This document shows positions 11,946 through 51,502 of a stretch of 64,000 nucleotides of DNA, in pieces. The stretch covers positions 1-64,000 of the forward strand of contig OY282444.1 in assembly GCA_958296125.1 (NCBI GenBank), written 5' to 3'. Below the pieces are notes generated by a model, which made no database searches, was not told where the DNA came from, and saw only the letters and a list, made by a program, of their open reading frames with translations. How positions within the stretch are numbered: the stretch's first letter is position 1; every line of letters begins with the position of its first letter. This DNA comes from an uncultured Poribacteria bacterium (lineage in GTDB: Bacteria; Poribacteria; WGA-4E; PCPOR2b). Position numbers and translations under genes: made by a program.

Positions 11946-12923
11946 ATGTCTGAAATCAAACTCCGTCCTGACCGTAAGGATACCACCGCTGCTGCTCGCG
12001 TGATCGCCCAGCACGTTGAACCCACCCCTTTGAGGAAAGAGAGTGCCTTTAGCGAGCCCCTAAACGCCAATGTATTTGTCAAATATGAATTCCTGAATCC
12101 TGTCAGATCCTTCAAGATTCGGGGGGCATTGAATCTTGCCAATGCGCTCGCGAACGGTAAAAGCGTATCGAGACTCATCACCGTTTCTACCGGGAATCAC
12201 GGTGCGGCCATGGCGTTTGCCTGTCAGGAGTACAACCTTCCGCTCACCGTTGGTGTCCCCATCAATTGTGATCAGAGCAAACTCGAATTGATTCGTCAAT
12301 TTGGCGGGGAGTTAGAAATGATTGGTCGAGATTTGGACGAAACCAAAGAGTTGCTGCAACAACGCCCGCTCTCACCAGATATCCACTTTATTGAGGATGG
12401 TTCCTGCCCTGAAATAGTCGCCGGCACTTCCACGATCGGCTGGGAAATTGTTCAGGAACTTCCCAACGTGGAGGTTGTCATTGTACCGGTTGGGAATGGT
12501 GCATTGATCGGCGGAATTGGAACGGCACTCAAAGAATTCAACCCATCGATCCGGGTGATTGGGGTCCAATCCGATTTGGCACCTTGTATGGCATTGTCGT
12601 TTCAAGCGGGGCACGCTGTGGACACGGACAATTGTGACACCTTTGCTAGCGGCATGGCAGTACGGGTCTCAATTCCAGAGGCGGTGGATCTGATGCTAGC
12701 GGTTGTCGATGAAATGTGCGTGGTTTCCGAGACGGATTTGAAAAAGGCGATGGGTGCCTTCTATAATCACACGGGCCACTTGCCGGAAGGTGCTGGGGTT
12801 GCACCTTTAGCCGCAGCATTGAAGATGCGTAGCACGCTAGAAGGTAAGACGGTCTGTCTAATCGCTTCAGGTGCGAATGTAGATGACATACTGCAGCAGG
12901 AAATTAAAGAAAAATTTGTGTAA
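11946..12923 (+). CDS. PLP-dependent threonine/serine dehydratase-like protein
   Basis: A 325-residue fold-type II PLP enzyme of the serine/threonine dehydratase and threo-3-hydroxyaspartate ammonia-lyase group. The PLP lysine is in SFKIRGA (K57), the phosphate-contacting loop is STGNHGAAMA, and a glycine-rich VPVGNGALIGG and C-terminal IASGANVD complete the site. No regulatory ACT domain is present, which fits a catabolic dehydratase or a related eliminase. It is followed by an SDR gene 66 bp downstream and a TauD-like oxygenase, suggesting a small catabolic unit. Substrate uncertain. Confidence 0.88.
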   Translation: MSEIKLRPDRKDTTAAARVIAQHVEPTPLRKESAFSEPLNANVFVKYEFLNPVRSFKIRGALNLANALANGKSVSRLITVSTGNHGAAMAFACQEYNLPLTVGVPINCDQSKLELIRQFGGELEMIGRDLDETKELLQQRPLSPDIHFIEDGSCPEIVAGTSTIGWEIVQELPNVEVVIVPVGNGALIGGIGTALKEFNPSIRVIGVQSDLAPCMALSFQAGHAVDTDNCDTFASGMAVRVSIPEAVDLMLAVVDEMCVVSETDLKKAMGAFYNHTGHLPEGAGVAPLAAALKMRSTLEGKTVCLIASGANVDDILQQEIKEKFV

Positions 12924-12989
12924 TCTGAATAAATCTAACCCTGCGAATGTTCAACGCCTTCACAGGGTTGTAAAAGGAGCAATACCATT

Positions 12990-13787
12990 ATGTCAGATTT
13001 CAAAGATAAAATCGTAATTGTCACCGGCGGTGCCAGAGGCATCGGCGGCGGTATCAGCCGGGCTTTCGCCGAGGAGGGTGCTCGGGTTCTTTGCGCGGAC
13101 CTAGATGACGACTCAGGGGCACAACTCGTAGAAGAATCCTCAAGCATGGAAGGAACTGTTCGTTTCCTGCGGGCAGATGTTGCCCACAGCAGCGAGTGCC
13201 AAGAGGTTGTCGAAACAGCGGTGTCAGAATGGGGTGGCGTGGATGTCCTCTGCAACAACGTTGGCATCCAGCCTGCGAATAGCTACCTACCCGCTCATGA
13301 GTTTCCGGAGGAGATGTGGGATCGCATCATTGATGTTAATCTCAAGAGTTTTTTCCTCATGACCAAATACTGTGTGCCGGAGATGAAGAAGCGCGGGGGC
13401 GGCACTATTATCAATACCGCTAGTGTTCAGGGATTACAGTCGATGCAGGGCGTGTCAGCTTATGCAGCCAGTAAGGGCGGTGCTCTCTCCCTGACACGCC
13501 AGCTCGCTCTGGAGTATGCCGAAGACAATATTCGGGTGCTGGCAGTCAATCCCGGAACAATCGATACACCGCTGGTAGCAGAAGCTGTGGACTTCATGGG
13601 AGGCGACTTGGAGAGCCTAAAAAAACTGTGGGGCAAGGCGCACCCGATGGGACGCATCGGTCAACCCAGAGAGATTGCCAACGTCGTTCTGTTCCTTGCC
13701 AGTGACAAAGCGTCCTTCATGACCGGCGAATACGTTTGTGTTGATGGCGGTATGATGGCAAAGGGGGCTTGGGCGGATAGCGAGTAA
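12990..13787 (+). CDS. Short-chain dehydrogenase/reductase (SDR)
   Basis: A 265-residue classical SDR with the cofactor motif TGGARGIGGG near the N terminus, NNVG (variant of NNAG) at about residue 90, a catalytic Ser in the NTASVQG strand and the YAASK catalytic pair. It ends with a typical GEYVCVDGGM dinucleotide-family tail. An AAGGAG site precedes the ATG. It lies 30 bp upstream of a TauD-like dioxygenase, likely the same operon. Substrate unknown. Confidence 0.92.
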   Translation: MSDFKDKIVIVTGGARGIGGGISRAFAEEGARVLCADLDDDSGAQLVEESSSMEGTVRFLRADVAHSSECQEVVETAVSEWGGVDVLCNNVGIQPANSYLPAHEFPEEMWDRIIDVNLKSFFLMTKYCVPEMKKRGGGTIINTASVQGLQSMQGVSAYAASKGGALSLTRQLALEYAEDNIRVLAVNPGTIDTPLVAEAVDFMGGDLESLKKLWGKAHPMGRIGQPREIANVVLFLASDKASFMTGEYVCVDGGMMAKGAWADSE

Positions 13788-13817
13788 AGGCGAACCTGGG
13801 GATGAGGAGGCGCGACA

Positions 13818-14777
13818 ATGAATGGTTCCCAGATGTTGACCGACAGGGTTTCCGATGAACGAGCTTGGCGAGCGAGTAGCATCGATGATGCTACGGCTTG
13901 GTCCTATCCTCTGTCCGAGGATTGTCTCTCCAGCTTTGAGTGCATTATCCGTGACGCACAGCGTCAGTCCCGACCGATTACGGAGATTATCCGTCCGAGT
14001 GCCTCCCTCAATGGCTGCAGCGAATATCTTCAACCGGTAAGTAACGCGCTCAATTTCGGGCGTGGTTTTGCTATCGTCGAACGGGTGCCGGTCGAACGGT
14101 ATGCGATTGAAGAGGGGCTGTCAATGTATTGGTTGATTGGTCAGTGCCTTGGCATCCCCATGGAGCAGAATATTGAGGGAACGCTGTTGTACAATGTCCG
14201 AGATACGGGTCAAAATGTGGCGCAAGGGGCTCGGTTTTCAGTGACCAATGCCGAAAGCTCGTTTCATAACGACAATTCTTTCGGTGAGCTGCTACCCAAT
14301 CTTGTAGGACTGCTCTGCTTGCACACGGCAAAATCTGGTGGGCAGAGTCAACTTATCAGCGGTTACACCCTCCACAATGAACTGCTGGAAAATCACCCTG
14401 ATACTCTCGAAACCCTCTATCAACTGTTCTGTTTTGATCGTCGAGGACAGGTCACAGTCGGGGAGTCGCCAACGTCTCAATTCCCAATCTTCCAGTGGAG
14501 TGAGGGTGAGTTGACTCTCCGATACCTGCATTACTACATCCAAGTGGGGCACGAGCGTGCGGACAAAACACTGACCGCAGATCAGAGAAGGGCATTGGAA
14601 GTTGTGGAAGGGTTGTTATGCCGTGCAGATTTCCGGGTGGAGTTCAACCTACAACCCGGACAGATGCTATTCACCAACAACCGTTGGGTTCTGCACAACC
14701 GCACCGCATTTAAGGACTATCCCGATCCAGAACGTCGGCGGCATTATGTGCGACTCTGGTTGCAACAGCACGGCTAA
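13818..14777 (+). CDS. TauD/TfdA-family 2-oxoglutarate/Fe(II) dioxygenase
   Basis: A 319-residue TauD/TfdA-type non-haem iron oxygenase. The facial triad is visible as SFHNDNSF (HxD, about residue 150) and a C-terminal His in NNRWVLHNRTAF, with the following Arg-rich YPDPERRRHYVRLW likely binding 2-oxoglutarate. These enzymes hydroxylate small organic acids, amines or sulfonates. A GAGGAGG ribosome site precedes the ATG. With the upstream SDR and PLP dehydratase it may form a degradation route for a hydroxylated amino compound; that is inference. Confidence 0.88.
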   Translation: MNGSQMLTDRVSDERAWRASSIDDATAWSYPLSEDCLSSFECIIRDAQRQSRPITEIIRPSASLNGCSEYLQPVSNALNFGRGFAIVERVPVERYAIEEGLSMYWLIGQCLGIPMEQNIEGTLLYNVRDTGQNVAQGARFSVTNAESSFHNDNSFGELLPNLVGLLCLHTAKSGGQSQLISGYTLHNELLENHPDTLETLYQLFCFDRRGQVTVGESPTSQFPIFQWSEGELTLRYLHYYIQVGHERADKTLTADQRRALEVVEGLLCRADFRVEFNLQPGQMLFTNNRWVLHNRTAFKDYPDPERRRHYVRLWLQQHG

Positions 14778-14876
14778 ATGATCGAGAACTTTGTTTTCAT
14801 TTTGATCTGCCTTGAAAAGCTTGCGAAGATTTGAAGCCTTTGCAAGGGGTTCTAGTGATGTAGAAAGGAAAAGGAT

Positions 14877-15674
14877 ATGATTCGTGTTATCATTGATGGT
14901 GCCTGCGGGCGCATGGGTAAGATGATTACGCAAGGCGTTTCACAGCAAGAAGATATGCAGATTGTCGGTGCCGTTGAATTCTCTGAACATCCACAACTCG
15001 GGCAGGATGTAGGGGAAGTAGCTGGAATTGGAGCAATCGGTGTGCCTGTCACCAGCGATCTCCCTGCAATTCTAGATGGGGGGGACGTTGTAATTGAGTT
15101 CACAACACCGAGTGCAACAGTTGAGCACCTCCAGAACGTTGTCGATGCCGGAAAGCGAATGGTCATCGCAACGACAGGATATGATGAAGAGGAGTTGGCG
15201 CAGGTACACGCACTCGCACCGCAAATCCCATGCGTGATCGCCTCCAACATGAGCGTCGGCATCAATGTCATGTTGCAAGCGATTCAGCTCGTCGCAGATG
15301 TGCTTGGGGACGACTACGATGTTGAGGTCATTGAAGCACACCATAATCAAAAAGTCGATTCGCCGAGTGGGACTGCCCTACGGATGGCGGAGGTCCTCGC
15401 TCAAACACTGGGCAGAAATCTTCCAGAAGTCGGCGTGTATGGTAGGCACGGCATTGTTGGAACTCGTCCCAAGAAGGAGATCGGTATCCACGCCATTCGA
15501 GGGGGAGACCTTGCCGGCGATCATACCGTCTTATTTGTCGGTGCGGGCGATCGCCTTGAAATAACACATCGTGGCCAAAACCGTGAACCTCTTGCGCGGG
15601 GAGCGATTCGTGCGGCAAGGTGGGTGATAAACGCGCCGAAGGGCTTGCATGACATCGCGGAAGTCCTGTTCTAA
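14877..15674 (+). CDS. dapB: 4-hydroxy-tetrahydrodipicolinate reductase
   Basis: A 265-residue DapB, the NAD(P)H-dependent reductase of the diaminopimelate/lysine pathway. The nucleotide-binding GACGRMGK is at the N terminus, the EFTTPSAT and ATTGYDEEE segments follow, and the substrate/catalytic signature EAHHNQKVDSPSGTA lies near residue 155. The C-terminal HRGQNREPLARGA is also typical. A GAAAGGA site precedes the ATG. It follows the TauD-like gene after a 99 bp gap with a weak hairpin, so it may have its own promoter. Confidence 0.96.
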   Translation: MIRVIIDGACGRMGKMITQGVSQQEDMQIVGAVEFSEHPQLGQDVGEVAGIGAIGVPVTSDLPAILDGGDVVIEFTTPSATVEHLQNVVDAGKRMVIATTGYDEEELAQVHALAPQIPCVIASNMSVGINVMLQAIQLVADVLGDDYDVEVIEAHHNQKVDSPSGTALRMAEVLAQTLGRNLPEVGVYGRHGIVGTRPKKEIGIHAIRGGDLAGDHTVLFVGAGDRLEITHRGQNREPLARGAIRAARWVINAPKGLHDIAEVLF

Positions 15675-20150: not shown

Positions 20151-21119
20151 ATGTACATTCAGGATCTGCTCAGTTGGGAACAGTTTAACGATGAGAATCT
20201 AAGTTTTTTTAACGCTATTGGCATTGATCGCCTCTGCCTTGACATTCGTGGTATGCACCGCGTTGACCCCTCACTGGATCTGCGAGATGGGGTGGATAGG
20301 ACAGATTTCTTTGAGGCGGCAAAGGCGAAAACAGAGGCTCACGGACTAGAGCTATACAGCATTTTTATGGCGGGCTGGGATGAAATTGCACTCGCGATGC
20401 CGGATCGGGATGAGAAAATCGAGGCGTGGTGTACGATGCTTCGGGGCATCAGCGCGGCCGGTATCCCTGCACTGGGATACAATTTCAAACCGATGGGGAA
20501 TTTCCGCACAACCTCCGCCAAAGGCAGAGGGGGCACCTCGTACAGCACCTTTGATTACGATGAGTTCTCACAGAACCGCCCCAAACCGCACGACCCACCG
20601 GTCTCGGAGGAGGAGATGTGGAAGCATATGACGTACTTCCTCAAAGGGGTGATTCCGGTAGCCGACAAAGTTGGGGTGCGGATGGCACTGCACCCAGATG
20701 ATCCACCGATTCCTGAATCGTTAGCGGGGGTAGCGCAGATTGTATCGACCCTTGACCAGTATCGGCGAATTTTCGACATTGCCCCATCCGACACCAATGG
20801 AATGCTATTCTGTCAGGGGTGCGTCACCGAGATGGGGGTAAATGTGTATGAAGCGATTCGGGAGATGGCTACTAAAAACAAAATCGTTTTTGTTCACTTC
20901 CGTAATGTCCGCGGATGCCTGCCAAGTTTCCAAGAGGTTTTTCTTGATGAAGGCGATATAGATATGCACCGAGCCATGTCGATTTATCGAGATGCAGGTT
21001 TTAACGGACCCTTTATGATGGATCACACACCAGGATTTCCGCGAATGGATGCAGGCAGAGCGGGACAGGCATACGCAGTCGGATATATTCGGGGCGTGAT
21101 TCAATCAGTGTATCGATGA
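20151..21119 (+). CDS. uxuA: Mannonate dehydratase-like protein
   Basis: A 322-residue UxuA-family protein. The enzyme dehydrates D-mannonate to 2-keto-3-deoxygluconate in hexuronate breakdown and needs a divalent metal. Visible signatures are ALHPDDPP, LFCQGCVTEMG, VHFRNVRG, FLDEGDIDM and the final FMMDHTPG. The ATG follows GGAGGGG. It is shorter than E. coli UxuA (about 390) but near the length of many homologues. Through the upstream deletion it appears to have acquired the promoter at 19848. It could act on another uronate derivative. Confidence 0.88.
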   Translation: MYIQDLLSWEQFNDENLSFFNAIGIDRLCLDIRGMHRVDPSLDLRDGVDRTDFFEAAKAKTEAHGLELYSIFMAGWDEIALAMPDRDEKIEAWCTMLRGISAAGIPALGYNFKPMGNFRTTSAKGRGGTSYSTFDYDEFSQNRPKPHDPPVSEEEMWKHMTYFLKGVIPVADKVGVRMALHPDDPPIPESLAGVAQIVSTLDQYRRIFDIAPSDTNGMLFCQGCVTEMGVNVYEAIREMATKNKIVFVHFRNVRGCLPSFQEVFLDEGDIDMHRAMSIYRDAGFNGPFMMDHTPGFPRMDAGRAGQAYAVGYIRGVIQSVYR

Positions 21120-21357: not shown

Positions 21358-22218
21358 CTATTCCCCTGACACACGAACGAACTTATGCAGCAGATTCTCA
21401 ACGCCTACTTCACCGATATATATGTCCCCGTGCCGGTCTACCCAGATGCCGTGGGCACCATGGTTCACATCGTCCGGTCCTCCCAACACGTTCCAGCAGG
21501 TAAGTAGCTTTCCATTTCGGTTAAAGATGCTGACACCGCCCCCCTCGGCGATGTAAACGGTATCGTCTGCGTCAATGTATAACCCGCAAGGGAATAGGCG
21601 GCCACTCCACTCGGATAGGAAACCCCCGTCCGGATCAAAAATTTGGATGCGATTATTCGGCTCTCTGTCAGCGACCAAAACCCTGCCCTCTCGGTCCATA
21701 AAGACATTATGGGGGAGGGTGAATTGCCCCGGCGCTGCCCCTTCTTTGCCCCAGGTATTTAGCAGGGTTCCATCGGGTGAAAACTGATGTATCTGATTTT
21801 GACCGTAACCGTCCGAAACATAAATATCACCCGATGGGGAAAGAACAGCACGAGTCGGCATGTTGAATGGTTCGCCGGGGGTGCCTGCCTTACCGGGTGT
21901 CCCAAGTGTTTTTAGGACCTGACCCTCTGTGGTGCAGATCCGTACCGTGTGGTCGCCGCAGTCGGCGATATAGAGCCGATCCTCTGAATCAATAAAAATA
22001 TCGTGAGGCAGACTGAGGAGGTCCTCGCCCCATGATGAGAGAAAGCGACCATCTCGGTCGTAGACCACAATGGCTGGGTTCGGCTCGCGGTCTACAACAT
22101 AGACCTTGTCCTGTGAGTCAACGGCAACACCTGAGGCGATGCCTAGCTTGCGACCGTCGGGCCCCTGTCCCCAACCCTTAACGACTTGGTAACAATATTC
22201 ACCACTTCCTAATACCAT
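21358..22218 (-). CDS. NHL-repeat six-bladed beta-propeller protein
   Basis: A 286-residue NHL-repeat protein related to the peptidyl-alpha-hydroxyglycine lyase fold. Repeats such as SGVAVDSQDKVYVVDR, LPHDIFIDSEDRLYIAD and LPHNVFMDREGRVLVADR recur about every 45 residues. There is no clear signal peptide, so location is uncertain. The start is placed at the ATG 6 bp after GGAGGTG rather than three codons upstream. Proteins of this type are common in this lineage near PhyH and sugar-enzyme genes; the function is unknown. Confidence 0.88.
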   Translation of the reverse strand: MVLGSGEYCYQVVKGWGQGPDGRKLGIASGVAVDSQDKVYVVDREPNPAIVVYDRDGRFLSSWGEDLLSLPHDIFIDSEDRLYIADCGDHTVRICTTEGQVLKTLGTPGKAGTPGEPFNMPTRAVLSPSGDIYVSDGYGQNQIHQFSPDGTLLNTWGKEGAAPGQFTLPHNVFMDREGRVLVADREPNNRIQIFDPDGGFLSEWSGRLFPCGLYIDADDTVYIAEGGGVSIFNRNGKLLTCWNVLGGPDDVNHGAHGIWVDRHGDIYIGEVGVENLLHKFVRVSGE

Positions 22219-22388
22219 AATTAACACCTCCGGCTTTAATTTGCGGATACCGAGTTCCTCAACTGGGACTTGGGAACGGAAAAATCTGATTCATCTAAAG
22301 GCGGATATTATAGCACACATGTCCAAATACCCGGCTCTAAAAAATCCAAGATTTCTTCATCAGGGCCAGACCTCTTAGGATTGCCTAA

Positions 22389-23177
22389 ATGAGAATACAG
22401 GAGATGTTTGAACTTCATGATCGTGTTGCCATCGTTACCGGCGGTGCAACGCACTTGGGACGTGCAATGACAACCGCGCTCGGTGAGCTAGGGGCTGCTA
22501 CAATTATTGCTAGCCGCCGGAAAGCCCTGTGCGAACAGGTTGCAGCGGAGCTGCAGGCAGCCGGCATCAGATGCGTCGGGCTTGGCTGCGATGTCACTGA
22601 CGAAGCACAGGTCAACGGACTTGTGGACGATGTGGTCAAGATGCACGGGCGGTTGGATATAATGGTGTGCAACGCCGGCGGGGCTGCGACAACGAGTTAT
22701 ATCCCCAATGCTTCGATTGATGAGTTCACCCGCACATGGGAAATGAACGTCAAAAGCACCTATATGTGTGCACAAGCCGCAGCCCGCGTGATGATTCCTC
22801 AACGCAGCGGTGCAATAATCACCCTCGGCTCCATCCACGGCTCCCTGAGTGCTGACAAACGTCTCTACGAAGGGTTGGATTTCAATCGTTCGGGTCCCCC
22901 GTATCAGGCAGCGAAGGGCGGCATAGTGAATCTGACTCGGGCACTCGCAGCTGAGCTCGGTGAGTATGGTATCACCGTCAACTGTATCAGCCCGGGACAG
23001 ATTCCAAAATCGACGACAGATCCAGAAATGGTAGAACGGTGTCGCCTGAGTAACCCGCTTGAACGCACAGGGGGTGCCGATGACATCAAGGGTTCTGTTG
23101 CTCTGCTCGCCTCACGCGCTGGCAGCTGGATTACTGGACATAACCTTGTGGTGGATGGCGGTTGGAGTCTCTGGTGA
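22389..23177 (+). CDS. Short-chain dehydrogenase/reductase (SDR)
   Basis: A 262-residue classical SDR with TGGATHLGRA for cofactor binding, CNAGG at about residue 97, a catalytic Ser in LGSIHGS and YQAAK as the Tyr/Lys pair, ending in GHNLVVDGGWSLW. It is the first gene of a plus-strand run that continues with an acetamidase, an AMDase-like protein, PhyH and amidohydrolases up to 28.3 kb. It probably oxidises an alcohol in that pathway. Confidence 0.92.
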   Translation: MRIQEMFELHDRVAIVTGGATHLGRAMTTALGELGAATIIASRRKALCEQVAAELQAAGIRCVGLGCDVTDEAQVNGLVDDVVKMHGRLDIMVCNAGGAATTSYIPNASIDEFTRTWEMNVKSTYMCAQAAARVMIPQRSGAIITLGSIHGSLSADKRLYEGLDFNRSGPPYQAAKGGIVNLTRALAAELGEYGITVNCISPGQIPKSTTDPEMVERCRLSNPLERTGGADDIKGSVALLASRAGSWITGHNLVVDGGWSLW

Positions 23178-23282
23178 ACGGCAAGACATAGATCCATTTT
23201 GGATGACCTACGTGTTCTGACAAAGTGAGATTCGCAACATTCTACGAAATCCACACGACTACACAAACGAAAGAGGTGCAAC

Positions 23283-24170
23283 ATGAAAAGACTCCCCCTT
23301 GGCCCGCTTTACTATGAGTTCAGTCGCCATAACGAGCCTCGATTACGAATCATGCCAGGCGAGACCGTGTTGGTGGAGGCAGAGGATGCCTTTTCGGGCC
23401 AGATCCGTACCAACGCCGATCGGCGGGATAAGACCAAGAAACCTTACGGCAACCCACAGACAGGGCCAATCTGGATCGAGGGTGCCGAACCGGGAGACGC
23501 GTTGATGGTTAAAATTGAGGAGATCCGACCGAGTATCGGCCAATGTGCCACCCGAACCTCGGACCCCAGACAGCTGGCTGAGTGGTTAGGCGACGACTGT
23601 CCACACGGTGTGCATGTCTGTCCCATCCGCGACGGGCAGATCTACTGGAGCGACGAGGTTACCATTCCCTACACCCCCATGCTCGGTTGTATCGGGACGG
23701 CACCGGATACCGGCATACCGACAACCGGCCCGGCGGGCCCTCATGGCGGGAATATGGATATCATCGAAACCTGTCCCGGCAATACCGTTTACTTGCCGGT
23801 ATTTGTATCAGGGGGGTATCTGTATTTGGGCGATGCACACGCCGCGATGGGGCACGGTGAGCTTTCCGCTTCCGGGTTGGAAATGCCCTCAGAGACGAGG
23901 ATTACCGTCGATCTCATCAAGGACAAGCACCTGCCGGGCCCACGAATCGAATCTCCGACAGAGATTATGACCGTCGCCACCGGCTGCCCGATGGAGCGTT
24001 CGACCGCTCAGGCTTATGCATGGTTAATCCTATGGATGGAAGAAGAATTTGGCTGGGATCGTTGGAAGGCGTATGACATCTTGACACATGTCGGACAAAT
24101 CTCGGTCGGTTACTACCAGATTGGGACAGTGGCAACAAAGATTGCCAAACGATATTTGGAAAACGGTTGA
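23283..24170 (+). CDS. Acetamidase/formamidase family protein
   Basis: A 295-residue FmdA/AmdA-family amidohydrolase that releases ammonia from short amides. The family pattern is seen in the pair of beta-rich halves, the segment GPIWIEGAEPGDALMVKIEEI, the PHGGNMDI motif and the LGDAHAAMGHGELSASGLEM metal/active-site region. An AGAGGTG site precedes the ATG. Next to it lies a maleate-isomerase-like gene, a combination that recalls degradation of a maleamate-like intermediate, but this is inference. Confidence 0.92.
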   Translation: MKRLPLGPLYYEFSRHNEPRLRIMPGETVLVEAEDAFSGQIRTNADRRDKTKKPYGNPQTGPIWIEGAEPGDALMVKIEEIRPSIGQCATRTSDPRQLAEWLGDDCPHGVHVCPIRDGQIYWSDEVTIPYTPMLGCIGTAPDTGIPTTGPAGPHGGNMDIIETCPGNTVYLPVFVSGGYLYLGDAHAAMGHGELSASGLEMPSETRITVDLIKDKHLPGPRIESPTEIMTVATGCPMERSTAQAYAWLILWMEEEFGWDRWKAYDILTHVGQISVGYYQIGTVATKIAKRYLENG

Positions 24171-24205
24171 AACCAGAGAATCAGCGTAAATAAGAGGCGA
24201 TAAAA

Positions 24206-24928
24206 ATGTACGGACAGAACGGACGAATTGGCTTGTTAGTGCCATCGGTCAATACAGTCGTCGAACCAGAGTTTAACCGATTGATTCCAGAGGGTATCGG
24301 TGTCTATGCGGCCCGGATGCGGAATACGCGGTCGGATGTAGACGACTCCAAGGCGATGCTTCAACATGTGGAGCGGGCCGCCGATGAACTTGGTAGTGCA
24401 CATGCAGACGTGATAGCTTTTGCCTGCACCGCGAGCAGTTTCGTGGCGGGTGTTGAAGGCGAAATCGAATTACGAGACCGGATCGAACGGGCAGGAGAAG
24501 CAAAGGCGGTTACGACATCGGGTTCCGTTGCAGGGGCGTTGCAGACACTCGGCATTCGGCGCGTCGCGGTCGCTACACCTTACCCGGACGAACTCAACGT
24601 GCTAGAGAAACAATTCTTGGAGGCCGAGGGCATTCAAGTCCTGACAATTGCCGGCATGGACATCGTGGATGCATTCAGCATCGGCAAAGTGACACCGCAG
24701 GAGACGTATGAATTTGCTCGGCGTGTCTGGCAGGACGATGCCGATGGAATGTTTCTCAGCTGCACCAACCTGCGTACCATTGATGTGCTGGCGCGACTGG
24801 AAGCAGAACTCGGCGTGCCGGTCATCTCCAGCAACTTGGCGACGTGCTGGGGGTGTTTGCGAGCCTTAGGATGTCAGGATTCGATTGACGGGTACGGGAG
24901 GCTTTTGACAGAGCGGCCTGATGTGTAA
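24206..24928 (+). CDS. Maleate isomerase / arylmalonate decarboxylase-family protein
   Basis: A 240-residue member of the Asp/Glu racemase superfamily closest in pattern to maleate cis-trans isomerase and AMDase. It opens RIGLLVPSVNTVVEPE, the dicarboxylate-binding loop. Two cysteine sites suited to catalysis appear as FACTASSF and FLSCTNLRT. Maleate isomerase would convert maleate to fumarate, which fits the amidase just upstream (35 bp). Racemase activity is a less likely alternative. Confidence 0.85.
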   Translation: MYGQNGRIGLLVPSVNTVVEPEFNRLIPEGIGVYAARMRNTRSDVDDSKAMLQHVERAADELGSAHADVIAFACTASSFVAGVEGEIELRDRIERAGEAKAVTTSGSVAGALQTLGIRRVAVATPYPDELNVLEKQFLEAEGIQVLTIAGMDIVDAFSIGKVTPQETYEFARRVWQDDADGMFLSCTNLRTIDVLARLEAELGVPVISSNLATCWGCLRALGCQDSIDGYGRLLTERPDV

Positions 24929-25021
24929 AGGAAAGGACTGCTCGTCAGCTCTTATCTGAGACACATCAGATCAAGGACCCTCGGAACAGAGATAGGTTCA
25001 ATTTGAGAAGGAAAACATATC

Positions 25022-25789
25022 ATGCAGCTGTCTAATGAACGAGTGAAACGGTTCTGGGAAGACGGATTCATCATTGTGAAAAATTTGCTCGCCCCCGATA
25101 AGGTCGCAGCGCTCCTTGCCCACGCCGAATGGGTAGCAAGCGGGAAAGCCACCCACATCCCGAAAGGGCAACTCCAGATCGAGCCCGGTGTAGTAGCAGG
25201 GAAGGCTCAGGCGGAGAACTACGCTGATTCCCTTCGGAAGATGAGCCATCTTGCCTTCTACGATGAAGGGTTTCAGAATCATGCTCGCAATCCGAAGATT
25301 CTGGACGTTATCGAATCGCTGCTAGGGCCCGACATCAAACTCTACCAGGATCAGCTTTTTATGAAGCCACCGCGGATCGGCTCCCGACAACGCTACCATC
25401 AGGATATGCCGCTCGGATTCTACATTGACCCACCTGACATGGTGACCTGTTGGGCGGCACTTACCGATTCAACGATCGAGAACGGGTGCGTCTGGATGCT
25501 GCCCGGCACGCACCAGTTTGGCATCATAGAAAAGTCGAAATGGGGAGAATATGAGCAGATGTCGGTTGAGGGAAACCTAGCCGAGGAGCGTCCGCTAGAG
25601 TTGAAGGCGGGCGATTGCAGCTTCCACCACGGCCTCATTCTCCACAGCAGTCGCCCCAACCAGACGAATCAACGGCGGCGAGGTTACGCGACGCACTACG
25701 TCAGTGCCAAGTGCCGATATACGGGTCCGTCGGAGAGAGAGAACGATGCGATGCTGATGCGGGGTCAGTCGATGCCGGGCTGCATCTAA
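25022..25789 (+). CDS. Phytanoyl-CoA dioxygenase (PhyH) family protein
   Basis: A 255-residue PhyH-type Fe(II)/2-oxoglutarate oxygenase. The iron triad is RYHQDMPLG (HxD) and FHHGLILHSS, and an Arg/Lys-rich RRRGYATHY follows for 2-oxoglutarate. The N-terminal helix pattern, FWEDGFIIVKNLL, is typical. A GAGAAGGA site precedes the ATG. This is one of four PhyH genes in the window; such oxygenases act on diverse small molecules. Its place in the amidase/amidohydrolase run suggests it opens a substrate by hydroxylation. Confidence 0.92.
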   Translation: MQLSNERVKRFWEDGFIIVKNLLAPDKVAALLAHAEWVASGKATHIPKGQLQIEPGVVAGKAQAENYADSLRKMSHLAFYDEGFQNHARNPKILDVIESLLGPDIKLYQDQLFMKPPRIGSRQRYHQDMPLGFYIDPPDMVTCWAALTDSTIENGCVWMLPGTHQFGIIEKSKWGEYEQMSVEGNLAEERPLELKAGDCSFHHGLILHSSRPNQTNQRRRGYATHYVSAKCRYTGPSERENDAMLMRGQSMPGCI

Positions 25790-25848
25790 AAATTCGTCCC
25801 CTTTGCTCCCCCAATGATAGCACACAAAAAAAGGCGAAACGGTAAACT

Positions 25849-26759
25849 ATGCACACGAGTAAATTGCTAAGAGCTTCAGATTTTCAATATTGGCGACTCG
25901 CTGAGGAGGGGCGCATCAGCGTTGACTTTAGGACATTCTGCCCGGATTACCACGAACTGGACCGCGTCGGTGTCATCTCTCCTTGTCTCGAAGACGGTAT
26001 TCTCTACACCGGGGATGCCCTGCTGGCGTTGACAACGGCATTCTATGATGTCCTCCGCTCACGTACGACCGATTTCTTCGACTACCCACAACATTTTGCG
26101 TTTATCGGTGCAAGTGAAGCCACTGTTCATACACGGGGTGAACGACTACCACTTGACCGCGCTGGGACGAGCTGGGGAAATCTTGATGTTTGGCCCAATT
26201 CAAAATGGATTCCAACACCGAGAAGTCTTACAGAGATGCTGAAGAAGGTTTTCGATTTTCAGATAAATCGACTGTTCTTGCCGCAAAATTTCAAACCGGG
26301 GCCCGACGAATCCCCGCTCCCCGCTTATGCGCGTAAGATGCTCGGCACTCGGCTTAAAGCTGTTTACTATTACAACACACCGATTCCCAACGTAGAGATT
26401 CGCGCCTCTCAACAGGTAGCAGATCTCGTTCAGAAGAGCATCGCCCAACTCCCCAACGCCGAAAGTGCAGCAGAGCACCAAGCACAGGGACATAAGGCTG
26501 AATACGCCGCGCCGAGCAGCTTCCCCTCTGTCGAGCGGTATCGGCAGGTGAGTGTCGATGATTTTCTCGAAGATATGGCGAGTTGTTTCGACGGGAGTTG
26601 AAGGAACGGATAGACGGTGCCTACGACAAAATCATTGTACGGTTAGGCGGACTAGAAGATATGCCGCTACGCCTGCTCTCGCCGTACCAAAGCTTCACAG
26701 AAACGGAGTATCAGGCGTGTAAACGGATACTCCATGAAAAATACCCAGATTGGGGTTAG
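25849..26759 (+). pseudogene. Unknown 303-residue protein gene with a one-base frameshift
   Basis: The first frame runs 25849-26601 and stops at TGA, but a coding-like frame continues without a break in the -1 phase to a TAG at 26757-26759. Restoring one G in the GGG at 26593-26595 would join FDG to ELKERIDGAYDKIIVRLGG and give a single protein of about 303 residues. No slippery heptamer is present, so this is an indel in the genome or the assembly rather than programmed frameshifting. I do not recognise the family; conserved-looking stretches are VGVISPCLEDGILYTGDALLAL and GPDESPLPAYARKMLG (parts). Possible start site is weak. Confidence 0.65.
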
Positions 26760-26767
26760 AGGGAGTT

Positions 26768-27526
26768 ATGACATCACTCAATTTCAAATCCAAAGTACCT
26801 GTCTTTGATGCCAACGTGAGGGTTGGCGATTTACTGGACGAACCTGCCCCCTACCGCGACCGGGCGGGGTTGTTAGCAGAAATGGATCGGCATGGCGTGG
26901 AGCGAGCACTCATCTACCACGCACACGCTGAGAATGTTAGTCCCATTGAAGGCAACAACTACCTTGAAGCGTGGTTGGGTGATGATGGGCGCACCCATCC
27001 GCAATGGATGATGATTCCCACAGCGGACTCGCTTTCGCAGATTCAATCACTACATGCTGAAGGAAGGGTCGATTGTGTGCGATTGTTTGATACCGGGCAA
27101 CGGGACTTGCCCTTCCGTCCTTGGGCTTACGATACGCAATTATCTTGGCTCAGTGAGGCGCGCATTCCTGTATGGATCCTCCTGCCGGATGCCGATGCAG
27201 ATACGTTGGTCACAACACTTCAGGCTTACCCGGATCTGGTATCGGTCTTGGTGGGAGCGCATTACGTCCATGCCCTTTGGTTGCGTCCAATGTTAGCCGC
27301 TTTACCAAACGCCTACTTGGAGCTAAGTCGCTACGAACCAATCTGCGAGATAGAAGCCTTGCGCGACGAATTAGGCCCCGATCGATTGGTCTACGGATCG
27401 TGGTATTCACGCTATGCAATGGGACCGATGTTGTTTTACCTGCACCACACCAACCTGACCGATGCTGAACTTGCATCGATTTGTGCTGGGAATCTTGAGC
27501 GTATTCTACAAGGAGGGACACCATGA
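26768..27526 (+). CDS. Amidohydrolase-2-like protein lacking metal ligands
   Basis: A 252-residue TIM-barrel protein that resembles the Amidohydro_2 protein encoded just downstream, but the usual metal-binding residues are absent. The first-strand HxH is replaced by FDANVRVG. The later His strand is VWILLPDAD, and the terminal GSD aspartate is changed to YGSWYSR. It may be a non-catalytic partner of the downstream enzyme or have a different activity. The start is set at the ATG after GAGG; a TTG six codons earlier has no site. Its stop overlaps the next start by 4 bp. Confidence 0.78.
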   Translation: MTSLNFKSKVPVFDANVRVGDLLDEPAPYRDRAGLLAEMDRHGVERALIYHAHAENVSPIEGNNYLEAWLGDDGRTHPQWMMIPTADSLSQIQSLHAEGRVDCVRLFDTGQRDLPFRPWAYDTQLSWLSEARIPVWILLPDADADTLVTTLQAYPDLVSVLVGAHYVHALWLRPMLAALPNAYLELSRYEPICEIEALRDELGPDRLVYGSWYSRYAMGPMLFYLHHTNLTDAELASICAGNLERILQGGTP

Positions 27527-28272
27527 TTGATGGAACACAGGTCATTGATTTTCATGGGCATGTTGGTCGCTGGGATCCGCTTGGCATGAAAGATGATCCA
27601 AAGTTGATGCTCCACGCGATGGACTCGGCAGGTATTGACAAATCCTGCGTGTTTGGCATCTTCCATCCCGACGGCACAACGAGTAATGACCAAGCCGCTC
27701 GTTTTATCGCGCAGCATCCGGATCGCATCATCGGCTTTGCCTATGTCTCACCGATGATGCCGGAGCGCATGATACCGGAGTTGACCCGCGCGATTGACGA
27801 ATTGAAATTTGCCGCCGTTAAGCTTTATCCGCCCTACACCCTTTGGCCATTCAATCAACCGCAGTGGCATCCTATCTACGAGTTCGCGAACGAGCGGGGA
27901 CTGGCGGTCCTTTTTCATACCGATGGCGGCGAATTGAGCAGGCCCCGGTATCTGTCCGAGATTGCACCGCAATATCCGAACGCTAAGTTTGTCGCCGGGC
28001 ATGCTGGCAACCTCATCGAACCTCGCGCTGAGGCTATCGCTGCCGCGCAGGCGCATCCCAACGTCTATCTCGAAACCTGCTCGACCTATCGTACACCCGG
28101 CGTGATTGAGCAGTTGGTGAATGAGGCAGGTGCCGATCGGGTGCTGTTTGGATCGGATACGCCCTTGATGGACCCGCGCCCTCAGATCGGTAAAATTATC
28201 ACCGCGGATATTTCCGACGAAGCTAAGCGGCTAATCTTGGGGGCTAACGCTCGCCGTTTGTTGGGAATTTAG
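27523..28272 (+). CDS. Amidohydrolase-2 family metal-dependent hydrolase
   Basis: A 249-residue TIM-barrel amidohydrolase. Metal ligands are visible as DFHGHVG (HxH), LFHTDGG, AGHAGN and the terminal catalytic Asp in LFGSDTP. Family members are decarboxylases or hydrolases of aromatic or lactone substrates. Its ATG overlaps the stop of a paralogue that lacks these residues, which implies paired expression and maybe a heterodimer. It ends the plus-strand catabolic run and converges with the transketolase-like gene. Confidence 0.9.
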   Translation: MIDGTQVIDFHGHVGRWDPLGMKDDPKLMLHAMDSAGIDKSCVFGIFHPDGTTSNDQAARFIAQHPDRIIGFAYVSPMMPERMIPELTRAIDELKFAAVKLYPPYTLWPFNQPQWHPIYEFANERGLAVLFHTDGGELSRPRYLSEIAPQYPNAKFVAGHAGNLIEPRAEAIAAAQAHPNVYLETCSTYRTPGVIEQLVNEAGADRVLFGSDTPLMDPRPQIGKIITADISDEAKRLILGANARRLLGI

Positions 28273-31195: not shown

Positions 31196-32179
31196 CTAAC
31201 CGCCTAAACGGCCCGTCACATGAGCCAAGTTATCACCGACGTGGACACGATGAATGCGTCTCAACATAATGACAACGCCGGGGCTCTCGGTCGTGATTTC
31301 CGCCATGACCTTACCGAAAGGGTCGCGAACAGTGCCCAAGCGTTGACCGGCACTAACTTCGTCCAGCAGGGCTACATCCGATCGGAAGTAGCCAGCGGCC
31401 GGTGTCGAAATGACGCTGTCCATATTCCCATCCCCGGACAGGTGATGTGTTATAGGTTGGAGTTGGGGCTGACCGTCCAGCATATCGAGATGCTTCATCA
31501 CATTGATTACGCCGGTGGTAAAGCAGCTGACATCGGACGGGTGGGCATAGCCTCCGCCGCCAGCTTCAGTATAGATCGCCGGCACCCCTAGGTCTATGGC
31601 AGCTGACAAACTTCGACCGGGCGGCATTGGCGGCGGATGCTCCCAAACCACCGAGGCACCGAAGGCAAGCGCACCGGCTCGTGAGCGTCTACCCAGTTCA
31701 TTGTCACTTTGGGTGAAACCAATGAGTGATGGGATTTCGGCGGTCACACCTCCGCTGTGCAGGTCAATAACGAAGTCGGCGGGTTTGATCAGCTTCTGAG
31801 TGATCCAGTAAGCAATCCGTTGCGTAATAGTACCGTTGGGGTCGCCTGGGAAGACGCGTGCCAGATTCAACCCGTCAATAGGGCTACTGCGGAGAACAGC
31901 TTCATAGGCAGGCACGTTACAAATTGGCACCATCAATAATGCACCGCGTAGCACATCGGGGGCTACACGCCGGAAAACTTCGGGGATAGTCTCAACCCCT
32001 TCGTATTCGTCGCCGTGCACCGCTCCGAGGACAAGCAAGGTAGGACCAGCGGTCACGCCCATCACGTAAAGAAAGGGCAAGCACCAGTCACCTCCATCTG
32101 CCCGTGGGCCGACTGCTAACCATGCGGACGCTTTGGAATCACGGGCCAATCGCGAAATGTCGAGTTCTTGAAAACGCAT
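31196..32179 (-). CDS. Succinylglutamate desuccinylase/aspartoacylase-like M14 zinc enzyme
   Basis: A 327-residue AstE/AspA-family protein of the M14 carboxypeptidase clan. The zinc motif is GAVHGDEYEG (HxxE) with the third ligand in VIDLHSGG; a later YTEAGGGG holds a likely catalytic Glu. Family members remove acyl groups from amino acids. A biotin/lipoyl-like C-terminal extension, with VSAGQRLGTVRDPFG, is present as in many homologues. It lies 5 bp downstream of an ABC ATPase gene and so is probably co-transcribed with the exporter. Confidence 0.9.
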   Translation of the reverse strand: MRFQELDISRLARDSKASAWLAVGPRADGGDWCLPFLYVMGVTAGPTLLVLGAVHGDEYEGVETIPEVFRRVAPDVLRGALLMVPICNVPAYEAVLRSSPIDGLNLARVFPGDPNGTITQRIAYWITQKLIKPADFVIDLHSGGVTAEIPSLIGFTQSDNELGRRSRAGALAFGASVVWEHPPPMPPGRSLSAAIDLGVPAIYTEAGGGGYAHPSDVSCFTTGVINVMKHLDMLDGQPQLQPITHHLSGDGNMDSVISTPAAGYFRSDVALLDEVSAGQRLGTVRDPFGKVMAEITTESPGVVIMLRRIHRVHVGDNLAHVTGRLGG

Positions 32180-47912: not shown

Positions 47913-48006
47913 TGGCGGGAGAGGGTGGGAGTCGAACCCACCTACCCACTTGCATGGGCAAGCTGGTTTTGAAGACCAGTAGAGCCACCGGACCCTATCC
48001 CCTCCC
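47913..48006 (-). tRNA. selC: tRNA-Sec (UCA anticodon)
   Basis: A 94-nt tRNA on the minus strand including an encoded CCA end. The acceptor stem has 8 pairs (GGGAGGGG with CCTCTCCC, one G-U), the anticodon stem is CTGGT/ACCAG around CTTCAAA with UCA at 47970-47972, the T arm is GTGGG/CCCAC, and there is a long variable arm with a CCCA/TGGG stem. The long acceptor, long variable arm and UCA anticodon define selenocysteine tRNA. It lies 109 bp downstream of selB, in the same direction. Confidence 0.97.
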
Positions 48007-50053: not shown

Positions 50054-51502
50054 CTAAGTCGAATAGTTCAATTCTGCTTGACGTTTTTCCATCACACACT
50101 TTGCTACTTCGACAATCCACACCGACTCCTCCTCAAATACCGTCCGCACATCAAGCCGGAGCCGCTCATCCTGCACGCGCCCAATCACAGGTATTGGTTG
50201 TGATCGGAAGTGGGCAGCGAGGGCTTCGGCGGAAATCTGCGGGGAGTCCAAGCTGATTGCAAGGCTTGGCAGGGTGTCAACGGGGAGCGAACCGCTGCCA
50301 ATCTGCGCGGCACTTTCTTCAACCGTCACTTGGATTGCGTCGCCGAAGATTTGCCGGAGGTGATTGGCGAGTTTTTCAGCGACTTCCCGGAGCTCAGCAA
50401 TTGACCGGGTATAGCACTGAAGCATCGGCAGTTTCTCGGTCAATCCCTTTTCGTTGAGGTAGAGTCGTAAAGTCGCTTCGATCGCAGCAATGGTGAGTTT
50501 TCCCACGCGCAACGCCCGCATCAATGGATTTTTGCGAATTTTCTCGATCGCGTCCAGTCGACCCACGATAATCCCTGCCTGTGCTCCTCCAAGCAGCTTG
50601 TCGCCGCTGAATGTCACGACATTAACACCGGCACTTATCCGTTCACGAACTATCGGCTCATAGGGCAGACCGTAACGGGTCAAATCAATCAGCGAGCCGC
50701 TCCCGAGATCTTCCATCGTTGGGATTCCGTGTCGACCTCCAAGTTCGGTGATTTCCTCCATTGTAGGGGTTGAAGCGAATCCGACGACCTTGTAGTTACT
50801 TGGATGAACCTTGAGCAGCAACGCTGTATTTTCGTTGATTGCATTTTCGTAATCCCGAAGGTGGGTTCGGTTCGTCGTCCCTACCTCGCGCAAGATTGCC
50901 CCGCTCGCTTCCATCACATCGGGAATGCGAAATGCCCCACCAATCTCGATGAGTTCGCCGCGGGACACAATGACCTCTTTGCCGCGCGCTAACGTATTCA
51001 ACGCGAGTAACACAGCCGCCGCGTTGTTGTTCACTATTGTCGAGGCTTCACACCCCGTTAGTCGCTGCAATAGGGGTTCAGTCATCCGATCTCGGTGCCC
51101 GCGCGCCCCTGTATCAAGATCATATTCCAGATTCACATAGTTGGCAGCGGCTTGAGCAATGCTTTCAGATGCCGAAGCACTGAGCAGCGATCTGCCTAGA
51201 TTTGTGTGTGTAATTGTGCCGGTGACGTTGACAATCGGTCGAAGCGCAGGGGCAGTTAGGGATTCGAGTTCCGCGCGGGCAAGTGCTGCATACGCCGCTT
51301 CATCCGGAGGTTCCACAATCTTCGCGCCGTCAAGGATTTGCCTGCGAATCTCCGCGGCGACCGTGCGTAACGCTTCTGTTATTAGCTCGCGCGAATACTG
51401 TTCCTGCATACTGAGAAACGGTTCACGGGAGAGCAACTGCTCGATGGCGGGGATGCGGCGCAAAGCCGCACCCTGTTCTGGCGTTAATTTCTTTGCCGGC
51501 AT
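50054..51502 (-). CDS. selA: L-seryl-tRNA(Sec) selenium transferase
   Basis: A 482-residue SelA, a PLP enzyme that converts seryl-tRNA(Sec) to selenocysteinyl-tRNA using selenophosphate. The N-terminal helical domain binds tRNA, and the core has GTITHTNLGRSLLS, the Glu/Asp-rich MEDLGSGSLIDL and the PLP lysine in TFSGDKLLGGAQAGIIVG. It leads the selA-selB-selC cluster. The ribosome site is weak. selD, needed for selenophosphate, is not in the window. Confidence 0.97.
   Translation of the reverse strand: MPAKKLTPEQGAALRRIPAIEQLLSREPFLSMQEQYSRELITEALRTVAAEIRRQILDGAKIVEPPDEAAYAALARAELESLTAPALRPIVNVTGTITHTNLGRSLLSASASESIAQAAANYVNLEYDLDTGARGHRDRMTEPLLQRLTGCEASTIVNNNAAAVLLALNTLARGKEVIVSRGELIEIGGAFRIPDVMEASGAILREVGTTNRTHLRDYENAINENTALLLKVHPSNYKVVGFASTPTMEEITELGGRHGIPTMEDLGSGSLIDLTRYGLPYEPIVRERISAGVNVVTFSGDKLLGGAQAGIIVGRLDAIEKIRKNPLMRALRVGKLTIAAIEATLRLYLNEKGLTEKLPMLQCYTRSIAELREVAEKLANHLRQIFGDAIQVTVEESAAQIGSGSLPVDTLPSLAISLDSPQISAEALAAHFRSQPIPVIGRVQDERLRLDVRTVFEEESVWIVEVAKCVMEKRQAELNYST

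Follow-up and report, generated by a model that had tools for sequence, protein, structure and literature searches.

Seven genes, here called g1 to g7, lie on the plus strand of a 64,000-nucleotide stretch of DNA (the window: positions 1 to 64,000 of contig OY282444.1, assembly GCA_958296125.1) from an uncultured Poribacteria bacterium, whose genome is a single 5.16-Mb contig and was compared within 84 members of its phylum. An open reading frame (ORF) check agreed with the initial annotation that the seven genes stand in operon order with short gaps, which measure 105, 35, 93, 59, 148 (166 when g6 is counted from its ATG), and −4 bases from g1 to g7; the last value is a 4-base overlap (ATGA) of the g6 and g7 reading frames. 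Their Pfam assignments are, in order, short-chain dehydrogenase/reductase (SDR), FmdA_AmdA, Amdase, PhyH, none for g5, and Amidohydro_2 for g6 (below the cut-off) and g7 (strong). For g6, the ATG at 26768 is more likely the start than position 26750, at which the ORF opens, since the alignment of its Chloroflexota homologues (L018 and L019) begins at that residue and the bases upstream are the tail of a deleted gene. Promoter-like sites (3 versus 7.2 in shuffles) and terminator-like sites (6 versus 7.5) in the stretch are not above background, and they therefore neither support nor break the operon. This work centers on the last two genes, an amidohydrolase-like pair.

Against PF04909 (cut-off, 26.4 bits), g7 scored 139.2 bits, and g6 scored 25.7 to 25.8 bits, just below the threshold. 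The metal ligands of g7 are intact, with HxH at residues 11 and 13 followed by H132, H160, and D212, whereas g6 carries Asn-x-Arg at the place of HxH and Trp at that of the strand-8 Asp. Thus, the "two amidohydrolases" of the initial annotation are one protein with a complete ligand set and one degenerate relative.

A survey of g6 covered 102 loci; four loci that repeat earlier ones were left out of it, and 22 hand-picked regions were added. The same searches supplied the 13 sequences used to seed the g6 profile, 12 of them with a g7 neighbor, and some of the seed places are among the domains counted here. Ninety-seven domains fitted the g6 profile best, from which 2 scoring below 60 bits, 4 scoring less than 15 bits better than with the g7 profile, and 4 partial ones were dropped, leaving 87 full-length g6 domains; 14 of the loci had no clear g6. 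HxH was found in none of the 87 domains and the strand-8 Asp in one. Fifty-eight domains lie directly upstream of g7 on the same strand, and 22 form the N-terminal half of a fused protein with g7 as its C-terminal half, while the ligands (HHHHD) are complete in 75 of the 80 g7 partners. Of the g7 domains that scored 150 bits or more in the examined loci, 71 were paired and 3 were not, a count biased by the fact that the loci had been found via g6.

A tree was built from 47 of the 80 pairs, retained at 80% identity. All g6 domains fell on one side of a single branch and all g7 domains on the other (support, 100/98), and this split recurred in 100% of 200 bootstrap trees. Fused and unfused forms are mixed within the g6 clade, and the g6 and g7 subtrees look broadly parallel. 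We read this as the product of one old duplication whose copies were retained as a unit. At the genome level, the g6 query or profile found matches in 15 of the 84 genomes of the Poribacteria phylum (E ≤ 1e-3), in 45 of the 301 genomes sampled from the phylum of L018 (E ≤ 1e-10), and in 47 of the 64 from that of L014 (titled Latescibacteria; E ≤ 1e-25), where the family is therefore no rarity; some of the weaker per-genome matches fit g7 better. Matches in the phylum of L018 sum to 101, of which 30 had loci, and those in that of L014 sum to 67, of which 20 had loci. Plasmid records hold an adjacent pair in Subdoligranulum variabile and a fused pair in the archaeon Halomontanus rarus. On the plasmid of Halomontanus rarus TS33 (L217, 7992 to 11379), two fused amidohydrolases follow each other, and the second seems reversed, its degenerate domain following the intact one. 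No description of the g6-g7 pair or of the operon was found in open-licence PMC papers.

These data argue that the window holds a conserved operon whose last two genes, as judged from gene adjacency, overlap, and fusion, probably encode a heteromeric enzyme with a catalytically dead partner. In this enzyme, g7 would carry the amidohydrolase metal site in the pattern of ACMSD (HxH, H, H, D), as judged from its sequence, and g6, a paralogous triosephosphate isomerase (TIM) barrel without the metal site, would stay bound to it. By analogy with known complexes, g6 would keep g7 in its active form, and it probably completes or covers the substrate pocket of g7.

The structure model of g6 is of moderate quality (predicted local distance difference test [pLDDT] score, 67; predicted template modeling score, 0.69) and was used for fold class only; its strands and helices alternate as in a barrel. 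The first Foldseek match was 3irs (E value, 1.5e-7; template modeling scores, 0.57/0.52), an amidohydrolase-type TIM barrel, and further matches were other amidohydrolases, including AibH1H2, SfbO, and COG3618 members. With the g7 profile, the decarboxylases and hydratases LigW, gamma-resorcylate decarboxylase, ACMSD, and LigJ came ahead of any lactonase. We also considered g7 as a sugar or pyrone lactonase of the COG3618 type; this candidate was lowered, as decarboxylases and hydratases lead the best 60 of 115 matches, among which the probable pyrone hydrolase 4i6k appears only at an E value of 0.033.

Several observations weigh against an enzyme with a dead partner. Seven of the 87 g6 domains have no g7 downstream: one (L042) has it upstream, as a recount in that direction added to a pairing count that had first looked downstream, two lie at contig edges, and four (L089, L093, L094, and L095) have no g7 within their flanks. 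In wider stretches around two of these four, L153 holds a weaker g7-like gene (92 bits) 1.9 kb away and L152 holds none. The g6 model also matches COG3618 and pyrone-hydrolase structures. No arginine after strand 6 is common to 13 of 13 g6 rows of the alignment, and an arginine donated by g6 in the manner of ACMSD was dropped as a rule. Finally, the Asp that stands at +5 relative to the strand-8 Asp in AibH2 of the oxygenase AibH1H2, and that passages of PMC7782822 link to two-metal sites, recurs in 9 of 13 g7 rows, so that a single metal in g7 is not certain. Since this AibH2 residue is common to most g7 rows, we slightly lowered the reading as an enzyme with a dead partner and slightly raised that of an oxygenase, taken up below. 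The four unpaired genes all stem from a single set of genomes of the Chloroflexota phylum, and their ligand-site letters are almost identical, two of the places being His and Gly; these g6 proteins may have acquired a function of their own.

A related alternative, which we regard as unlikely, is that g6 and g7 are separate enzymes of consecutive steps, g6 being metal free and acting alone, and that fusion serves only to channel an intermediate between them. It would fit the report of characterized PF04909 enzymes without cofactor (in part of PMC10811679), the fact that consecutive enzymes also become fused, and the retention of polar residues in g6, where E38 and E196 are invariant and N16, R105, E185, and R206 nearly so in 13 rows (E185 and R206 at 90% or more). 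Nevertheless, a new active site would be expected to be conserved, whereas the strand-8 ligand position of g6 varies freely (F, W, R, Y, G, N, K, and others), and a downstream g7 is missing in so few cases that an enzyme with a dead partner remains our preferred reading.

The features of the locus and its neighborhood are listed in Table 1.

Table 1. Features of the operon and its surroundings in the window
Feature	Position	Strand	Evidence
UxuA-like / xylose-isomerase-type TIM barrel, 322 aa, upstream neighbor	20151..21119	+	PF03786, 164.9 bits; 90-94% identity, in place in L011, L012, L013
NHL beta-propeller protein, divergent neighbor	21358..22227	-	PF01436; in place in L011-L013
g1, SDR	22389..23177	+	PF13561; TGGxxxxG, NAG, TLGS, YxxxK motifs
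g2, acetamidase/formamidase family	23283..24170	+	PF03069, 100 bits; orthologues 92-96% in G017, G020, G021, G022
g3, arylmalonate decarboxylase / EutA / maleate isomerase superfamily	24206..24928	+	PF17645, 148 bits; cysteines 74, 186
g4, PhyH family (Fe(II)/2-oxoglutarate oxygenase type)	25022..25789	+	PF05721, 123 bits; HxD motif
g5, conserved, without assigned family	25849..26601	+	14 loci; 8/84 phylum genomes
DHDPS-family (DapA/NanA-like) aldolase remnant, last 55 residues and stop	26604..26768	+	87% identity to residues 266-320 of L011:10735-11694
g6, degenerate amidohydrolase without HxH and strand-8 Asp	26768..27526	+	Ligand columns; Foldseek best match 3irs
g7, predicted catalytic amidohydrolase	27523..28272	+	PF04909, 139 bits; HxH, H132, H160, D212
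AstE/DoeB-like deacylase of wider module	31196..32179	-	PF24827; 62-65% homologue in g5 gene run of L018, L019, L020

Three genomes of the same genus, G020, G021, and G022, have the operon at L012, L013, and L011, respectively, on contigs titled Candidatus Poribacteria. All seven genes occur there in the same order and on the same strand at 74 to 96% identity, six of the proteins being 85 to 96% identical to their relatives and g5 74 to 75%. Because order and strand of all seven are kept, comparison of the sequences indicates that the arrangement is beyond chance. At L052, the contig begins inside the Amdase gene, and the 3′ part is kept from the end of that gene to g7. G018 (88% complete) has no g5 and no close homologue of either Amdase or g6. 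Beyond the genus, the set splits up. G017 keeps Amdase-g6-g7 and has its FmdA orthologue at the edge of another contig; we infer that the two contigs adjoin in the genome. An old yellow enzyme (OYE)-type reductase gene and a homocysteine S-methyltransferase-family gene precede this FmdA orthologue (L193, 1181 to 4348), hinting at methylated substrates in G017. Of the seven genes, G025 has only the g6-g7 pair, and its adjoining PhyH genes are about 24% alike. Thus, the uncharacterized catabolic operon of the initial annotation, for which co-occurrence across genomes had been proposed as a check, is supported by synteny within the genus, but its genes are not kept together outside it.

The operon of the relatives is larger. 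Between their Amdase and PhyH genes, L011, L012, and L052 carry a heparinase II/III-like gene of 744 residues. The DHDPS-family gene that separates g5 from g6 is whole in L011 and L012, whereas the L052 copy is interrupted; L013 holds two short scraps of it, and the window retains the remnant listed in Table 1, which is the sole DHDPS match in its own genome at E ≤ 1e-20. The heparinase-like query found no match in the window's own genome, and the same query does match L012 and L052. The sequences thus indicate that a conserved catabolic operon of Poribacteria is present in the window in shortened form. The Chloroflexota loci L018 and L019 run from g5 through DegT, DHDPS, g6, g7, and an Ala_racemase_N/D-ser_dehydrat gene to one of AstE type; L020 matches them except that g6-g7 is missing. 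We tie the AstE-like gene of the window to the module because its homologue shares the g5 gene run in these three loci.

The losses raise the question of whether the operon is decaying in its own genome and no longer encodes a working pathway. The DHDPS gene, a 55-residue remnant here, is also broken in G019 and G021, and the heparinase-like gene is gone from its place here and in G021. On the other hand, the seven remaining reading frames are all open, and six of the seven proteins have stayed close to their relatives in sequence, with g5 somewhat less so. We therefore consider decay improbable and retain the view of a shortened catabolic operon.

The family assignments leave the chemistry of the other genes broad. 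The SDR and PhyH calls of the initial annotation were confirmed by Pfam and by the usual motifs. Its amidase, g2, does belong to PF03069, but as a distant FmdA/AmdA member, scoring 72 bits with the formamidase model against a cut-off of 500. Similarly, its maleate-isomerase-like protein, g3, shares the superfamily and both cysteines with maleate isomerase, but it fits the arylmalonate decarboxylase model NF052327 (136.7 bits; cut-off, 225) and the EutA model TIGR02990 (136 bits; cut-off, 318) equally well and far below both cut-offs, which leaves it assigned at the level of the superfamily. For g5, neither Pfam (above its cut-off) nor NCBIfam gave a match, and the PDB gave none of significance; its AlphaFold model (A3) was kept out of the fold search because of a mean pLDDT of 48.5. 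The g5 loci in the genome collection number 14, of which 3 are from Poribacteria, 7 are titled Latescibacteria, Latescibacterota, or (once) Gemmatimonadota, and 4 are from Chloroflexota. In 11 of them, several being near-identical strains, g5 has a DHDPS-family gene no more than about 2 kb away, with families Pfam-checked for L011, L014, and L018. Distant g5 relatives (about 25% identity) occur in other Poribacteria of the order (L049, 5786 to 6457; L050, 9281 to 9958; L051, 3003 to 3728), and in L049 and L050 the neighbor of the relative looks, by eye, of Gfo/Idh type. The PhyH protein may be a demethylase, a candidate function taken from part of PMC12709175.

The initial annotation tentatively assigned the operon to the breakdown of an amide- or N-heterocycle-derived compound resembling the late steps of nicotinate-type pathways, that is, maleamate to maleate to fumarate. 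Such a route might be suggested by the FmdA/AmdA-family gene adjoining an Amdase-family gene with both cysteines, and the solved maleate isomerases 2xec (E value, 1.9e-22) and 4fq7 (3.7e-22) do match g3, although the hypothetical protein 4ix1 matches it better (9.8e-29). However, neither family models, ligands, nor window content supports this specific chemistry. The fit of g3 to the two models is indiscriminate, and g2, a PF03069 protein, falls outside the family usual for maleamate amidases of the NicF type. No pyridine-ring oxygenase or hydroxylase and no ring-opening dioxygenase was present among the 32 window proteins scanned (three without any family), the rest of the genome not being searched. 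Moreover, the genes added in the relatives are of lyase and aldolase types. We therefore judge the nicotinate-type route highly improbable. Ectoine-type catabolism, with an EutA-like g3 and a DoeB-like AstE protein, was likewise rejected, as the model cut-offs were missed; the AstE-like protein scored 133.6 bits with the DoeB model TIGR02994 (cut-off, 402.7).

A dehydrogenase, a dehydratase, and a pyruvate-type aldolase together resemble the non-phosphorylative sugar-acid route. The heparinase II/III-like and DHDPS-family genes of the relatives and the UxuA-like neighbor led us to prefer sugar-acid over nicotinate chemistry, and a route of this type is our tentative choice for the context of the operon. 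In such a route, the SDR would oxidize or reduce, the UxuA-like protein would dehydrate, and the DHDPS-type protein, whose gene is lost in the window's own genome, would cleave to pyruvate. PhyH would oxygenate, enzymes of the FmdA and AstE types would remove an amide or acyl group, and g6/g7 would decarboxylate, hydrate, or hydrolyze an acidic intermediate. Passages of PMC6306507 attribute uronic acid and glycosaminoglycan degradation to sponge Chloroflexi and Poribacteria, the same organism groups with lyase, dehydratase, and aldolase types alike; the gene set described here does not appear in those passages. Two lines of evidence count against the route. First, several genomes of the genus lack the DHDPS and heparinase-like genes or have them in broken form, so that the route cannot run as drawn in the window's own genome. 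Second, the genes beside the pair vary widely. Of eight families tested, PhyH alone was enriched there (13 of 206 genes versus 4 of 267 control genes; Fisher P = 0.005, uncorrected for the eight families), and SDR and DHDPS were not; 6 of 46 loci were dropped from this test, as they had no core gene call. The varied neighbors and the lack of SDR and DHDPS enrichment weaken a single shared pathway, and the varied neighbors and the loss of the aldolase in several genomes disfavor one fixed pathway.

Elsewhere in the window, a second plus-strand cluster (11946 to 15674) with PALP, SDR, TauD-type oxygenase, and DapB genes resembles the g1-to-g7 operon in character. A tRNA-Sec gene (47913 to 48006) and an SelA gene (50054 to 51502), both on the minus strand, lie about 2 kb apart, and the genome therefore appears to use selenocysteine.

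Taken in a wider frame, the g6-g7 pair could well be an ancient and widespread split amidohydrolase, although we hold this with less assurance than the pairing itself. One duplication would have led to a permanent division of labor between a metal enzyme and a barrel without the metal site. The pair would have spread through Poribacteria, Latescibacterota, and Chloroflexota and, going by single records, Bacillota and haloarchaea; it would have become fused several times and been put to use with various partners on acids that arise when host material or dissolved organic matter is broken down. Annotation tends to treat PF04909 "amidohydrolases" singly, as happened to g6 and g7, and if many of these proteins are pairs of an enzyme and a dead partner, assays of single proteins may fail or mislead. 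The pair is thus the part worth following, and the fused forms, including the plasmid-borne one of Halomontanus rarus TS33, make the question of pairing directly testable.

Among solved structures, the amidohydrolases 3irs (BB4693) and 3cjp (CAC3332) are among the three best relatives of the g6 and g7 profiles and of the g6 model; both are titled uncharacterized, with no function in their records, and do not settle the reaction. Database matches liken g7 to LigW and gamma-resorcylate decarboxylase of the COG2159 type. Its ligand pattern is that of human ACMSD (His6, His8, His174, His224, and Asp291), an enzyme described in part of PMC9021598 as inactive in monomeric form, with the neighboring subunit supplying a substrate-binding arginine. 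ACMSD is a homodimer of equal subunits, whereas g7 would pair with a dead paralogue.

The closest parallel to such a pairing is AibH1H2, the 2-aminoisobutyrate hydroxylase of Rhodococcus wratislaviensis, which, in passages of PMC7782822 and PMC10401708, consists like g6-g7 of adjacent PF04909 paralogues of low identity, one catalytic and one noncatalytic, as proposed here for g7 and g6. It is a heterotetramer in which the noncatalytic AibH1 has a role that its authors call unknown but essential (PMC7782822), and a passage of the review PMC12141560 proposes that AibH1 maintains the catalytic complex. On this basis, g6-g7 might itself be an amidohydrolase-related dinuclear oxygenase (ARO), an idea to which the pairing of unequal PF04909 paralogues, the presence of AibH1H2 and SfbO among the Foldseek matches of the g6 model, and the shared +5 Asp all lend themselves. 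The metal sites nevertheless make it very doubtful. AibH1 still binds one metal (Asp24, His26, His201, Glu255, and Asp328), whereas in g6 both HxH and the strand-8 Asp are gone. AibH2, which has ferredoxin partners, carries two metals in its oxygenase site, with DxH and Glu where g7 has HxH and His. The g7 columns depart from the ARO set (DxH, His, Glu, and Asp-x2-His-x-Asp), as given in parts of PMC7782822 and PMC12141560: apart from the His and the strand-8 Asp that both have in common, they agree with it in the last Asp alone (9 of 13 rows), and His at +3 occurs in 0 of 13 rows. Moreover, no Rieske gene lies in the window; its own genome has 12 matches, the nearest starting at 603089 on the same contig. 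We therefore return to an enzyme with a dead partner: by analogy, the g6-g7 pair would work like AibH1H2, yet with a metal site that sets it apart from that group of oxygenases.

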